Source of the DNA: Verrucomicrobia bacterium 12-59-8
GTDB taxonomy: Bacteria; Verrucomicrobiota; Verrucomicrobiae; Verrucomicrobiales; Verrucomicrobiaceae
Length of the DNA: 16,087 nt
Direction of reading: 5' to 3'
Assembly (NCBI GenBank): GCA_002279765.1
Contig: NCCR01000161.1
Span: forward strand, 1 to 16,087
Below, one piece after another: positions 11,332-16,087 of this stretch. Position numbers and translations under genes: made by a program. The notes under the pieces are model-generated. The model saw only the letters and a program-made list of their open reading frames with translations. It did no database searches and was not told the origin of the DNA. Every line of letters starts with the position of its first letter. Position 1 is the first letter of the stretch.

Positions 11332-12654
11332 ATGCACCGACCATCGCTCTTCTCTCCCCGGCTCGCTGTCATGGCTGCCGCACTGCTCTTTCAATCCGTA
11401 GGCACGCTGGCCGCTGATGCCAACACCCTCACGCCGCAGGAGCAGGCGGCAGGCTGGCGACTGCTGTTTGATGGTCGCAGCACCGCTGGCTGGCACACGT
11501 ATGGGAAGAAATCCGTCACTGCCGGGTCGTGGAAGATTCACGACGGCTGCCTCGTCCTGCCTCCAGGCAATGGCCGGCCCAATGGCACCGGCGGCGATCT
11601 CGTGACCAACGCAATGTTCACAAACTTCGAGTTTGAGTTCGAGTGGCGCGTCGGCCCCGTGGGCAACAGCGGCGTGGAGTATCTCTTCACCGAAGGCGAG
11701 AAGCGCACCGCCTCGTTTTACCCCGGCGACACCGGCGACAGCCCAATGGGCTTCGAGTACCAGGTGCTTGATGACGCCCCGCATACGAACAACGCGGCGA
11801 ACCGGCTCGCCGCCTCCATCTACTCGCTCGTCACCGCGACGGGCAAGACGCTGCGTCCCGTGGGCGAGTTCAATCAAGGCCGCGTCGTCGTGGATGGCAA
11901 TCACGTGGAGCACTGGCTCAATGGCCGCAAAGTGGCGGAGTGCGAGCTGGGCAGCGCGGAGCTGCAACGCATCATCGCCAGCAGCAAGTACAAGTACTAC
12001 CCGGGCGTCGGCGTGAAGCGCGCCACCGCCATCGCCTTGCAGGATCACGGGGCCGAAGTGGCCTACCGCAACCTCAAGCTCCGCGAGCTGCGCCCTTCCA
12101 CCACCAGCGCTCCGACCACCGCAATGCCACCGCCATCATCCGCTCCTGCGGCAGCGCCTTCGTCATCCATGACCGCACGCAACATCCCCATGCAGGCCGC
12201 CGACTGGTGCGTCTGGTGCTGGTCCAAAGCCGACAACCGCTGGGTGGAGCATCCGCTGGACAAGATGACCGTGCAGATTCAGGACGGCGTGCTCAGCGCC
12301 CGCAACACCACCAACAGCAACTGGCCCCGCGCCATCCTCGTCTATCGCGGCACCCTGCTCGACGGCGACTTCATCATCTCCGCCGACTACCGCGGCCAGC
12401 TCGAATCCTTCGACCTTCAGTCCGCCGACGGTGGCAACCAGCGCCTCTCCTGCCTGAACCCACCGCAGGACAACCAATGGCACACCATCCTCCTCGACCG
12501 CAAGCAGGGCCAGTACGTTGCCCGCATCGAAGAAGCCTCCGTCCAGGTGCAGAACAGCAAAGCCTCCGCTGGTATGAAAGGCTACTTCTGCTTCAAGCTA
12601 CGGCCAGGTGAGACCCTGGAGGTGAGGGGATTGGTGGTGCAGGTGGGGAGGTAG
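11332..12654 (+). CDS. Secreted DUF1080 (3-keto-disaccharide hydrolase-like) protein with a second beta-sandwich domain
   Basis: This 440-residue exported protein has a Sec signal (RLAVMAAALLFQSVGTLAADA, cleaved near residue 29). The first domain (about 38-245) is DUF1080: GWRLLFDGRSTAGWHTYG, KIHDGCLVLPPGNG, NFEFEFEWRVGPVGNSGVEY, GFEYQVLDD, and the end VAYRNLKLREL. This fold is a concanavalin-like beta sandwich, and some members hydrolyse 3-ketoglycosides. A Ser/Pro/Thr/Ala linker follows (about 247-275). The second domain (about 283-440) looks like another laminin-G-type sandwich (GDFIISADYRGQLESFDLQS, WHTILLDRKQGQYVARIEE). I chose ATG 11332 because it gives the signal peptide; the frame is open far upstream but overlaps the ATL gene. 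Verrucomicrobiota carry many such proteins, and polysaccharide breakdown is the likely setting. Confidence 0.88.
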   Translation: MHRPSLFSPRLAVMAAALLFQSVGTLAADANTLTPQEQAAGWRLLFDGRSTAGWHTYGKKSVTAGSWKIHDGCLVLPPGNGRPNGTGGDLVTNAMFTNFEFEFEWRVGPVGNSGVEYLFTEGEKRTASFYPGDTGDSPMGFEYQVLDDAPHTNNAANRLAASIYSLVTATGKTLRPVGEFNQGRVVVDGNHVEHWLNGRKVAECELGSAELQRIIASSKYKYYPGVGVKRATAIALQDHGAEVAYRNLKLRELRPSTTSAPTTAMPPPSSAPAAAPSSSMTARNIPMQAADWCVWCWSKADNRWVEHPLDKMTVQIQDGVLSARNTTNSNWPRAILVYRGTLLDGDFIISADYRGQLESFDLQSADGGNQRLSCLNPPQDNQWHTILLDRKQGQYVARIEEASVQVQNSKASAGMKGYFCFKLRPGETLEVRGLVVQVGR

Positions 12655-12684
12655 TTGTACCAAGAACTTTGATTGAAGGTACTC

Positions 12685-13587
12685 ATGCATGCTGCCCTTA
12701 TGCCCCTCTGGATTGCCCTGCTGTTTCTGCTGTATGTTTTTGCTGCCAAGTGGCTCATTCTCCGCAGTAAAGCCAAGCGCCAGAGCCGCCCCCCCATTCA
12801 TCTGAAGTTGCTGCGTCTGCCGGGTGAAACAGCGCGACTCAAGGCGGACGAGCTGCTTGAAGAAATGGTGGATCAACTCTTCTACGGGGCGGTAGCCTCA
12901 ACGATCCTTATGATGGGCCCTTTGGTTGTACTGGTGTGGGTGCCCGCAGCTGACGTGAGATGGTTGCTCTTTAGCAGTGCTGTTTTATTCCTTACGGCCA
13001 GTGTTCACCACCTGCGCAAGGTCGTTAAGATCGGCAAGAAACGCGCCAATTATCGTCTAGGAGCAGCGGGTGAACGCGAAGTGGCAGGCCACCTGCAAGT
13101 GCTCAATGCCAAGGGCTACAAGGTGTTTCACGATGTGCCGGTAACGCATGAAAAGGGTATGGAGAACATCGACCATCTGGCGGTGGGACCACATGATGGC
13201 CTTGTGTTGATCGAAACCAAAACGCGCAGCATTTCCACGAAAGAAAACAGGGGCAATCAAGAGGTGACGTTTGATGGAGAACGGCTGAGCTGGCCGACGT
13301 ATCCCGATGATCTAAAGACTGTACAGCAGGTGAAACGCTGCGCGCGATGGGTGGCCGATCTTGTGCGCGAGGAGTTCGGCCGAACGATCCCCGTGCAGCA
13401 AATCATCGCGATTCCTGGCTGGGAAGTGGTCCCTGGCAAATGCTACAACCCACGCGTCCTGCACCCCGGCGCTTTGGAGGATGCCTTTGACATGATGATG
13501 GCCAGCCAGCCGAATGTCTTTAAGCCCTCAGAGATCAAGCGCCTCGTAGCGAAGATCGAAATACTTTGCCGCGATGCAGACTGGTGA
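12685..13587 (+). CDS. Membrane protein with a NERD (nuclease-related) domain
   Basis: This 300-residue protein has one N-terminal hydrophobic helix (about 5-26). A second hydrophobic region (about 66-106) probably forms two helices. A cytosolic NERD domain begins near residue 125. Its motifs are LGAAGEREVAGHLQVL, GYKVFHDVPV, MENIDHLAVGPHDGLVLIETKT (Asp163, Glu177, Lys179), and HPGALEDAF near the end. The D...E-x-K pattern is that of restriction-endonuclease-like folds, so DNA cleavage is plausible but unproven. NERD proteins are often seen in defence or plasmid contexts. ATG 12685 is preferred to TTG 12673; GAAGGT lies just upstream as a weak ribosome-binding site. The gene is 30 bp after the DUF1080 gene, with no clear functional link, and no terminator is seen after it. 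Confidence 0.85.
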   Translation: MHAALMPLWIALLFLLYVFAAKWLILRSKAKRQSRPPIHLKLLRLPGETARLKADELLEEMVDQLFYGAVASTILMMGPLVVLVWVPAADVRWLLFSSAVLFLTASVHHLRKVVKIGKKRANYRLGAAGEREVAGHLQVLNAKGYKVFHDVPVTHEKGMENIDHLAVGPHDGLVLIETKTRSISTKENRGNQEVTFDGERLSWPTYPDDLKTVQQVKRCARWVADLVREEFGRTIPVQQIIAIPGWEVVPGKCYNPRVLHPGALEDAFDMMMASQPNVFKPSEIKRLVAKIEILCRDADW

Positions 13588-13792
13588 GCGAGTCTGATGC
13601 TGATGATAATCCCCCCCTCAAATCCTCCTGCACAGCAGATCGCTCTTAGAGGCGCATTTTCTGTTTTGGAATGGGGTAAGCGGCTGGATTTGTCTCATGG
13701 AAGACGCCCTTGGTTCGCAGCCAGACTCCGAAGGCCGTTAATTTATACAAGGCCCAGAATCCACTGGACAGCACCTACATAATTATAGCAAA

Positions 13793-14236
13793 ATGTGTAG
13801 CATGAATCCTCTCCCCTCCAAGCTCCCCTGGACGCCTTATGTTGATGGTAACGACATTGTAGTCACGAACATTGCCGCCACTTGTTTTGGCGGCAAATAT
13901 GACACCGGAGACAACGGCGAGACAGAAAGCGGTGTGAAGAATGATGGAAGTGATCCAAATCTCATGGGGTGCGCGCTTCCCTTCAAAGGGCCGCACATCC
14001 CATGGAAAACGCCCGTCATGGTGTGGAAGATCTCCGAAGGTGAACAGTCAGCCCTGAAATGCCTGCTCATCGACAACGGCCCCAGAGTGTCTGATTACCC
14101 TACTCACGCGCTCGACCTGAACCCCAACGCCGTTCTACATTTCTCCCCACAATGGAACCCGAAAACCGTGGCGAACACCTGGGCACAGTCCGGCTTTTGT
14201 TACCGAATCATCGGCGGTGCCCAGTGGGTGTCTTGA
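13793..14236 (+). CDS. Double-psi beta-barrel (RlpA/expansin-like) protein without a signal peptide
   Basis: This 147-residue protein has the run NIAATCFGGKYDTGDNGETE, SGVKNDGSDPNLMGCALPF, WKTPVMVWKI, LLIDNGP and HALDLNPNAV. That is the order of a double-psi beta-barrel like RlpA or expansin: C-F-G-G-x-x-D, then S-G, then A-L-P, then the catalytic-site style D-x-G-P, then A-L-D-L. Family members bind or cut cell-wall polymers. Here no signal peptide or membrane helix is present, so it is either cytosolic, exported by a specialised route, or released by lysis. The start could be ATG 13793 (MCSMNPL) or ATG 13802. The upstream DNA is AT-rich (TACATAATTATAGC), which may hold its promoter. It stands alone, next to a long gene-free stretch. 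Confidence 0.75.
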   Translation: MCSMNPLPSKLPWTPYVDGNDIVVTNIAATCFGGKYDTGDNGETESGVKNDGSDPNLMGCALPFKGPHIPWKTPVMVWKISEGEQSALKCLLIDNGPRVSDYPTHALDLNPNAVLHFSPQWNPKTVANTWAQSGFCYRIIGGAQWVS

Positions 14237-14380
14237 TAGAGGTGGCAGCCAGAGAGGCCAGACTCTTAGCCACCCGCTGTGATGGCTGAACAAACCCTGC
14301 CTCAAAACTTCCCATACTGCAAACCGGTCACAGCAACATACCTTTCGGATTGGAGGGGGTAACGTCTTCGATGAAGTATA

Positions 14381-14404
14381 GCGTTTTGCGAAACTGATTT
14401 CCGG
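14381..14404 (+). repeat. 24-bp dispersed repeat, copy 2
   Basis: It matches 5467-5490 in 23 of 24 bases, in the same orientation, with the core TGCGAAACTGATTTCCGG at 14387-14404. It lies in the gene-free stretch after the double-psi barrel gene. Confidence 0.6.
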
Positions 14405-14439
14405 GAAGCATGCGGTGGAGACGCTTGCGGACAAGCCGC

Positions 14440-14661
14440 CGTCACCGGAGTCCATGATCTGATCCGTGTCGTGATCTGCCAAGGTCGCGAGACGGTATAG
14501 TCGAGGCAGGCCTTGGGGACGAGGAAGGCGGTAAGGCGGTCGATGAAATCGGCGTTCGTTTCGGCGTGTGCGAGTTTGGCGAGGAGACTGTCCAACGAAC
14601 GGATGGCCGGGAGGACTTCGGGCGAGCTACTCGCCACCCGTGTATGATAGCTCCTCGCCAT
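14440..14661 (-). pseudogene. Possible coding remnant
   Basis: On the reverse strand an open frame starts at ATG 14661 (MARSYHTRVASSSPEVLPAI). Its next part, RSLDSLLAKLAHAETNADFI, then DRLTAFLVPKACLDY, has the helix-like periodicity of real protein. Downstream of about 14440 the composition turns irregular and the frame runs into the 24-bp repeat region. I recognise no family. It may be the decayed start of a gene or chance. Confidence 0.2.
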
Positions 14662-14970
14662 CCTGGAGGTCCAGGCTGCGTATCGACTGCGACAGCTCGT
14701 GCGTACTTGGTTGGTTTCATTGAGAGCGTGAGCACATCACCTACAGGGCAGGCCACTCTAGAAACATTTGTTCAAGCAAGCTTGGATCCCCACCCTTGAA
14801 GGCCAACTTGGCAATTCATGGCCGCGGTTCACGGCAGCTTTTGCCGGGGAGTTGCGGGATGGACGCGCATTTGCGTACACCCCCCCGGAGAAGATGGAGA
14901 GGATTCCCTCCTTGGCTTACCCTCCCGTGAGCCTTGCGCCCCTTGCGCGTAATCTCCGGGTGAAAAGCCA

Positions 14971-15016
14971 GGATCAGGATCAACCAAGGATCATGATCCT
15001 GATTTGATCCTGATCC
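14971..15016. repeat. 46-bp interrupted inverted repeat built of GGATCA/TGATCC
   Basis: The arms GGATCAGGATCAA (14971-14983) and TTGATCCTGATCC (15004-15016) are perfect inverted copies of 13 bp. Between them sits a separate 14-bp perfect palindrome AGGATCATGATCCT (14987-15000), set off by three unpaired bases on each side. The unit GGATCA and its complement TGATCC recur through the whole structure. Confidence 0.9.
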
Positions 15017-15019
15017 CAA

Positions 15020-15069
15020 TAGGATCACAGGATCAGTACCTATATATAGGTACTGATCCTGTGATCCTA
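15020..15069. repeat. Perfect 50-bp palindrome
   Basis: The left half (15020-15044) and right half (15045-15069) are exact reverse complements with no spacer. The outer arms carry TAGGATCACAGGATCAG and its complement, and the centre is CCTATATATAGG. The AT-rich centre should ease extrusion of a cruciform. As RNA it would form one very long hairpin. It lies 3 bp after the 46-bp inverted repeat. Confidence 0.95.
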
Positions 15070-15209
15070 GATCCAAACCCCAACGGGGTGGTGAAATGAG
15101 GCTGTGATTCCAGAACTCAGCGCTGGTGAGCTCCAATGGGTCTTGGCAAGTCCCTCTCCTTGGTTTTGCCTTGGCCGATCATTCGATGAGTCATCGCTTG
15201 GAAGTCCTG

Positions 15210-15321
15210 GGCTTCGGCGGCGGCGGTTGGAGGACCAACCGCCCTACCTTTTGCGCCATGAACTCTCGCGTGCCCGGCGCGAGGTGGGGCTGGCTGTCCT
15301 CGGCCAGCCGCCGCCAAAGCC
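15210..15321 (+). other. GC-rich region with competing stem-loops, possible structured RNA
   Basis: A long-range stem pairs 15210-15224 with 15307-15321 (14 of 15 positions, GGCTT-mismatch-GGCGGCGGC). It competes with two local hairpins: GGCGGTTGG (15222-15230) with CCAACCGCC (15235-15243), and GGCTGGC (15288-15294) with GCCAGCC (15303-15309). A third hairpin, CTCGCG (15265-15270) with CGCGAG (15278-15283), fits inside either fold. No T-tract follows. No known RNA family is recognised. Confidence 0.35.
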
Positions 15322-15482
15322 TATGGACCTTCGAGCCGGAGGCACCTGATAGGAATGAGTTTCGCGAGACGCTATTGCAGCGCGAGGAAAGTCATGGAAG
15401 CGGCAAGGACGAGCTGGGAGCGGGAAGGGGGCTTGTTCGCTTGAAGGCCCGTCAGCACGAAAGGATCGAGGACGAAAGGGAA

Positions 15483-16087
15483 CTACAACCCCAATTCCGC
15501 GCCCTCAGTCTCCTTGCTGCCGCGCTTCAGCATCACCGCCAGCAGGGCGATGTCGGCCGGATTCACGCCCTGGGCTCTCGCGGCCTGGCCGAGGGTGGCG
15601 GGGCGGAGGGCGGTGAGGCGGTGTTTGGCTTCGGTTTTGAGGCCAGGAATGGCGTGGTAATCGAAGTCGGCGGGGATCATCTTTTCCTCCATGCGGGAGG
15701 TTTTGGCGACCATGTCTTCCTGCCGGGTGATGTAGCCGGCGTATTTCACGTCGTTTTCGACGAGGCTCCAGACCTCGGGGGTGAACTGGGAGTAGATCTC
15801 AGCAGGCAGCTGGGAGGGGATGCTTTCGGGACGGCGCAGCCATTTTTCCAGGGTCACGCCGTCCAAACGGACCTCCTGCAGCAGGGTGCGGGCGGTGGCG
15901 AGGGCGGTGGATTTGGTCTCCGTATGCCGGATGCGGAAAGGGGAGGCAAGGCCGATGGCGGCGGCCAAAGGGGTGAGGCGGAGGTCGCAGTTGTCCTGGC
16001 GGAGGAGCAGGCGGTACTCGGCGCGGGAGGTGAAGAGGCGGTAGGGCTCGGTAGTGCCTTTGGTGACGAGGTCGTCGATCATCACGG
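15483..16087 (-). CDS. mnmG: tRNA uridine-5-carboxymethylaminomethyl(34) synthesis enzyme MnmG, C-terminal part
   Basis: About the last 200 codons of MnmG (GidA) are present; the gene begins beyond the right edge. MnmG with MnmE modifies U34 in the wobble position of several tRNAs using FAD, NADH and a folate donor. The frame reads VMIDDLVTKGTTEPYRLFTS, then RAEYRLLLRQDNCDLRLTP, the strongly conserved central signature. The C-terminal helical MnmE/tRNA-binding region follows, with VENDVKYAGYITRQEDMVAK (the YxGY motif), ADFDYHAIPGLKTEAKHRL and RPATLGQAARAQGVNPADIALL. The stop is TAG at 15485-15483. It points toward the gene-free stretch. No terminator with a T-tract is visible immediately after the stop. 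Confidence 0.96.
   Translation of the reverse strand, partial: VMIDDLVTKGTTEPYRLFTSRAEYRLLLRQDNCDLRLTPLAAAIGLASPFRIRHTETKSTALATARTLLQEVRLDGVTLEKWLRRPESIPSQLPAEIYSQFTPEVWSLVENDVKYAGYITRQEDMVAKTSRMEEKMIPADFDYHAIPGLKTEAKHRLTALRPATLGQAARAQGVNPADIALLAVMLKRGSKETEGAELGL

Follow-up and report, generated by a model that had tools for sequence, protein, structure and literature searches.

The replication origins of Staphylococcus aureus pathogenicity islands (SaPIs) and phage-inducible chromosomal islands (PICIs) have been described as lying directly 3' of the initiator gene rep, with two sets of iterons around an AT-rich region (PMC7581432, PMC6092414). The primases of SaPIbov1 and SaPI5 are named there as archaeo-eukaryotic primase (AEP) type (PMC7581432), and AlpA-type regulators and integrases have been described for Gram-negative PICIs (PMC6092414). 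For the PLE elements of Vibrio cholerae, the DNA-binding domain of the initiator was reported to co-vary with the origin, with the remaining protein conserved; the phage nuclease Odn attacks this origin and iteron changes escape it (PMC8263062). The C-terminal domain of the helicase Cch2 of the staphylococcal cassette chromosome SCCmec was reported to bind repeats that lie immediately 3' of the gene encoding this helicase (PMC7581432). Here, we describe a double palindrome in 16,087 nucleotides of Verrucomicrobia bacterium 12-59-8 (the window; contig NCCR01000161.1). With a probability of roughly 0.8, it is proposed to be the orphaned replication origin, an iteron array, of verrucomicrobial elements in which a RecA/DnaB-type initiator helicase is encoded together with an HTH_17 protein and usually a TOPRIM primase. 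A first-pass annotation of this DNA had listed several possible roles. A replication site that also acts as a binding array is the best supported of them; two others, a mobile unit that forms hairpins and a long hairpin at the RNA level, are taken as rivals. A replicon family of this kind in Verrucomicrobia was not found in targeted searches of the open-licence literature on Verrucomicrobia iterons and on Prosthecobacter palindromes and repeats.

The double palindrome and its copies in relatives

The element consists of two structures separated by 3 bp, and its geometry is as first described. P1 (14971..15016, plus strand), the putative iteron set 1, is a 46-bp interrupted inverted repeat of 23+23 nt, 87% complementary, whose 13-bp arms enclose a 14-bp palindrome at 14987-15000; it holds three forward and three reverse copies of the word GGATCA. 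P2 (15020..15069, no strand), the putative iteron set 2, is exactly a perfect 50-bp palindrome, with 25-bp arms that are 100% complementary, no spacer, and two forward and two reverse GGATCA words around its core. This AT-rich core, ACCTATATATAGGT (15038..15051, no strand), is a putative melting site. GGATCA words make up most of P1 and P2: 10 of the 21 copies in the entire 16 kb fall within the 99 bp of 14971-15069, five on each strand, and the hexamer does link both structures of the window as one element. When 100 first-order Markov sequences were modelled on the window, the best perfect palindrome of each had arms of 6-10 bp, and none reached 25. The surroundings had been called gene-free, which holds for the two open reading frames (ORFs) scanned that overlap or adjoin the element, 14816-15136 on the minus strand and 15104-15349 on the plus strand, neither of which has a Pfam family at E 0.1.

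A search for further copies, which the first-pass annotation had suggested, found the core at 25 places besides the window, in 7 of 68 family genomes; a reversed control pattern was found at 0. The window and these seven genomes are given the working label 'genus'. The window was placed in it because its piece of MnmG, encoded by the C-terminal part of mnmG (15483..16085, minus strand; Pfam PF13932 and PF21680), is 93-98% identical in all seven. When the arm pattern was searched with the core left unspecified, the same seven genomes were recovered among 386 of the order, and 15 of 17 matches had the same core. In a set of bacterial and archaeal genomes, the 23-mer GGATCACAGGATCAGTACCTATA was present in four contigs, all from Verrucomicrobia, of which one is labelled Prosthecobacter sp. 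and one Verrucomicrobiaceae. Full 25-nt arms are available for 24 of the 26 core places that include the window; the palindrome is perfect in 16 of these 24 and has at most one mismatch in 19.

The words of the other copies are GGGTCA, GGTTCA, GGCTCA, GGGCCA, GGTGCCA, GGTATCA and GGGTTCA. Each copy has a single dominant word or two that are mixed, and both arms mirror each other. Words flank the TATATATA core on both sides in the window and, by eye, in most copies inspected; a P1-like layout was also seen by eye in many other copies. What the copies conserve is the layout and the TATA core, whereas the word, GGATCA in the window, varies. At syntenic site A, cored palindromes carry GGATCA in genomes G001, G003 and G004 and GGTGCCA in G002, with a second cored palindrome carrying GGTATCA in G001 and GGGGCCA in G004. 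This one intergenic site (L020, L023, L027 and L031) has at least one array in each of the four genomes, and among these are neighbouring copies that differ in word.

Several further searches concern the nature of the repeat. A dense dispersed repeat was rejected, as only one such cluster was present among 20 inverted-repeat clusters of a 383-kb contig; several other clusters in that contig look terminator-like by eye. Most core places are interior to contigs, which bears on the idea of a telomere-resolvase site, where replicon ends are covalently closed hairpins. No plasmid DNA similarity was found for window positions 14300-15480, and the 19-base arm had 0 matches in viral contigs. A small hairpin, ACCCCAACGGGGT (15077..15089, no strand), follows the element and is common to the window and locus L022. 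Small hairpins of the types CCAACGGG/CCAATGGG-like and CCCAACGGG/CCAATGGG were also seen by eye downstream of many array copies.

A helicase gene with a variable winged helix before the arrays

A gene for a RecA-type helicase (AAA_25) is present in 8 of the 68 family genomes, namely all seven with the core and G056. The 14 matches comprise 10 distinct genus copies or remnants with a 3' end, the G056 gene, and three pieces of the same or other genes. In all ten genus copies or remnants with a 3' end, the words start 6-14 bp past the helicase stop; the array of L113 has lost its core, and the contig of L107 ends inside the core. The helicase of G056 is 51% identical, and its ACCGTC words surround a different TATA palindrome. 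Five genus copies (in G002, G003, G025, G048 and G049) have a full-length or nearly full helicase. A small helix-turn-helix (HTH) gene precedes the helicase in all five (by eye; Pfam HTH_17 was checked for G049 only), and a TOPRIM primase lies between the two in four. Outside the family, the helicase profile matched six loci in viral contigs at 24-28% identity and nine phage records weakly. Against PDB sequences it gave two matches, at E 0.09 and 0.7, that were not used. In metagenomes, 957 homologues were scored at E 0.001.

The predicted fold of the helicase is a RecA-type ATPase that carries a winged helix at its C-terminus. In a structural model with a predicted local distance difference test score (pLDDT) of 83.6, the recognition helix of the winged helix (378-390) starts at variable residues, and the ATPase core is closest to KaiC, DnaB and RadA, with a TM-score of ~0.4 of the whole model. 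The triplet of residues before the motif AKRRI goes with the word of the adjoining array: EPT with GGATCA (three copies), EST with GGGTCA (two), ESS and ASS with GGGTTCA, PAT with GGCTCA, ERS with GGGCCA and VAT with GGTATCA. Among these 10 rep-array pairs and six words, no triplet occurs with two words and one word occurs with two triplets (permutation p 0.0009). Fold and co-variation together lead to the prediction that the helicase is an initiator with an origin-binding C-terminal domain.

Word and winged helix also differ within one locus. Upstream of a gene for a flavin adenine dinucleotide (FAD) oxidoreductase, G001, G002, G003 and G025 have four different triplets with four different words, the pairs being EPT/GGATCA, ESS/GGGTTCA, ERS/GGGCCA and VAT/GGTATCA; the helicase bodies at this locus are 89-94% identical and the C-termini 51-71%. 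Across 32 helicases (of the best 35 homologues; three that lacked a C-terminus were dropped), the identity of the body and of the last 44 residues is uncorrelated (rho 0.02). For P0014 and P0026, for instance, the bodies are 82% identical and the C-termini 100%, whereas other pairs reach 95% and 50%. Judged from these alignments, the winged helix varies independently of the helicase body. The simplest account of the word changes would be that helix and array are exchanged together, as one contiguous block. Such an exchange is possible because rep ends in its winged-helix part and the array follows in the adjoining DNA, and it would account for the joint change of words within a copy. Many separate mutations were judged less likely than cassette exchange as the source of a word change, body and C-terminus identity being uncorrelated.

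The following mechanism is proposed. The C-terminal winged helix of the helicase would read the repeated word (GGATCA in the window), and helicase copies would gather on the word sets that surround the clamped TATATATA core. Melting of this core, possibly aided by cruciform extrusion, would then be followed by loading of the helicase, and the primase would start synthesis. Recombination would swap the array together with the winged-helix end of rep, as one specificity cassette. A bolder version, which we put forward as a speculation that may well fail, is that this swappable cassette of verrucomicrobial integrative elements follows a short protein-to-DNA code, the middle bases of the word being dictated by one or two residues where the helix begins, that rapid switching is driven by origin-directed attack or incompatibility, and that orphan origins in host chromosomes, the one in the window included, are active decoys or helper-dependent replicons and not relics. 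More generally, an orphan array may be a relic, a decoy or an origin that depends on a helper.

The arrangement extends across the order and class. The helicase profile matched 28 of the 386 genomes of the order. Of 34 loci given, six were dropped (four had no downstream DNA and two were duplicates) and 28 were scored for an array, defined as at least four copies of one 6-mer within 160 bp after the stop. An array was present after 17 of the 28 helicase homologues versus 13 of 179 control genes, and a palindrome with an arm of at least 8 after 9 of 28 versus 0 of 179. For the class, this definition and the prediction that at least half would pass were fixed beforehand. Among 384 genomes searched, 12 matched the helicase, of which eight were new; seven of the eight passed, with seven different words, and the eighth is a short fragment without the C-terminus. 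By eye, a G/C-clamped AT-rich palindrome is present in all seven; its centre is TTAGGTAA in L178, and in L181 it lies beyond 160 bp. The placing of an origin directly 3' of its initiator is a trait of the PICI/SaPI type, and the array position fits it in 10 of 10 cases in the genus and 7 of 8 in the new genomes. An array so placed would, we infer, be an origin. A second prediction, from C-terminal motif to word, concerned three motifs, none of which is present in the new set. GGATCA words were seen again after a divergent helicase of another genome (L183), an apparent convergence of the word. Near one distant helicase relative, L164 3791-10244 holds an ORF of 1130 aa whose start is RuvC-like, two shorter ORFs (300 and 108 aa) and DNA that resembles repeats; by eye, it looks like a type II CRISPR-Cas locus.

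The window copy and competing explanations

The closest match to window positions 14945-15108 is the array in L022, with 92% identity over 166 columns from 14945; the shared block ends at 15108 and includes the small hairpin. The L022 array adjoins a 129-residue helicase remnant, and positions 14945..14968 of the window (plus strand) align in register with the helicase gene end in L022. They are a probable trace of the 3' end of rep, an argument made because of their place beside the array. No rep gene was seen in the window. At the orthologous place, for which mnmG is the syntenic anchor, the full element was found in 0 of 7 relatives (the G048 stretch is only partly covered); G025 has a degenerate P1 and lacks P2, and by the criterion applied neither an array nor a core was found there in any of the seven. 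The element is therefore not the fixed chromosomal site that had been raised at first pass. Because no rep gene is left and the relatives have no array at the mnmG place, we read the window copy as an origin orphaned within variable intergenic DNA, in which rep would have gone and the origin would have stayed, perhaps with 24 bp of the gene end. The stretch from the gene ending at 12654 to mnmG (12655-15480; L085-L091) varies in content and in length, from ~2 to 5 kb, among the compared relatives and is a hotspot of variable DNA.

Several points weigh against an orphaned origin. Since few arrays have an intact rep alongside, the array may have a role independent of that gene, and the full-length helicase of G048 has no primase match before it. 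The recognition-helix residues were picked after seeing the data, the 10 rep-array pairs, all of a single genus, are not independent of one another, and the use of two residues in place of three gives one conflict. The 24-bp trace of rep is not significant alone, as 61 of 1000 shuffles score equally in free alignment. Eleven of the 28 homologues in the order missed the array definition. Among them, L111 was scored on the wrong segment and L113 has a truncated array; six (L143, L145, L146, L147, L149 and L151) show, by eye, GGGAC/GGGAA words and an AT-rich clamped palindrome; L150 has words and no palindrome, L135 has weak words only and L142 has nothing. Lastly, no integrase lies near the genus copies among the matches listed, the nearest being ~17 kb away in G003. 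In favour of the proposal, at least 5 of 20 distant relatives (G256, G280, G305, G310 and G311) have a tyrosine-integrase match on the same strand, 1.5-2.6 kb upstream, and the integrase domain was confirmed in G280, G305 and G310. Since integrases lie upstream in distant relatives and none near the genus copies among the matches listed, we take the family to be replication modules that belong to integrative elements and are in part decayed or immobile.

Of the other explanations, a hairpin mobile unit of the repetitive extragenic palindrome (REP) or miniature inverted-repeat transposable element (MITE) kind, moved by a Y1 (IS200-type) transposase, survives best and is nevertheless improbable. 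Its copies would be dispersed, palindromic and intergenic, as the arrays are, and a Y1_Tnp gene lies ~1.1 kb from one array pair (L101 5146-5742). The protein of this gene, the one Y1 query used, matches only 2 of 25 element loci, L101 itself and L022 at 29%; linkage to a RAYT (Y1) transposase, expected of a REP element, was not generally seen with this query. Moreover, such a unit leaves the position after the helicase stop, the TATA core and the co-variation with the winged helix unexplained.

A long RNA hairpin, acting as a bidirectional terminator, a stabiliser in the 3' untranslated region or a small RNA, is slightly less probable still. As single-stranded RNA, 14950-15100 is predicted to fold at -80.5 kcal/mol, whereas 200 shuffled sequences average -39.4 (z -10.7), and the arrays are placed after gene ends. 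A terminator scan of 14200-15600, however, found none at the element, and no Rfam family reached threshold; at E 1 there were 13 weak matches (12 microRNA families and one sR084), all far under the cut-offs. An RNA hairpin needs neither the direct repetition of the word nor its match to a DNA-binding helix.

About equally improbable is a regulatory operator array of the rep operon, with the winged helix as an autorepressor domain. The co-variation of word and winged helix would be equally expected here, but the array lies 3' of the gene, the DNA-binding domain is carried by a helicase, and an AT-rich core has a word set on each side, the arrangement of the PICI origins described in PMC6092414. 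An assembly fold-back artefact, which can yield spacerless perfect palindromes and which the first-pass annotation had named as a possible refutation of its finding, is refuted for the family by the 25 further core places with differing words in seven other genomes, even though three G049 contigs begin 1, 4 and 49 nt before the core and indicate that assemblers break there.

More broadly, contig boundaries fall on arrays, just before them, or where an array would be expected, in G049 (C104, C173 and C184), G048 (C144) and G311 (C549), and arrays may account for some contig breaks in these assemblies. With the origin reading, an odd palindrome would become a marker for a replicon family. The natural series of rep-array pairs, with many words and four of them at one locus, would make the change of origin specificity of an initiator helicase directly testable.

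Comparison with known replicons

The helicase resembles a 'bifunctional DNA primase/helicase' of Bacteroidales plasmids, with 25-33% identity in 17 records; in one record, genes for a site-specific integrase and an HTH protein lie beside the helicase. In the two records examined, in contrast to the present family, an HTH gene directly follows the helicase. Cch2 of SCCmec shares the position of the repeats just downstream of the helicase's own gene, with binding known for Cch2 and predicted here. It differs in being a Primase_Cterm/D5-type helicase with three 5-nt iterons, as described in PMC7581432.

In the RepA-ori modules of PLE, as in this family, changes in the origin are matched by changes in the initiator's DNA-binding domain, predicted as such here, with the remainder of the protein conserved. 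According to PMC8263062, the domain in PLE is of the RepA_N type, the other end of the protein is conserved and there are two groups, whereas the domain here is C-terminal, adjoins the array and goes with six words among ten pairs of one genus. The likeness to SaPIs and PICIs lies in an array directly 3' of rep, in word sets that flank an AT-rich core, and in HTH_17 and integrase genes beside relatives of this family. The differences are a RecA/DnaB-like helicase (AAA_25), a TOPRIM primase in the genus, genus copies with no integrase nearby among the matches listed, and iterons arranged as long palindromes, many of them perfect, around a clamped TATA core, with a highly variable word. By analogy, the family looks to be built like the rep-ori modules of SaPI/PICI and PLE, a likeness at the level of replicon layout.
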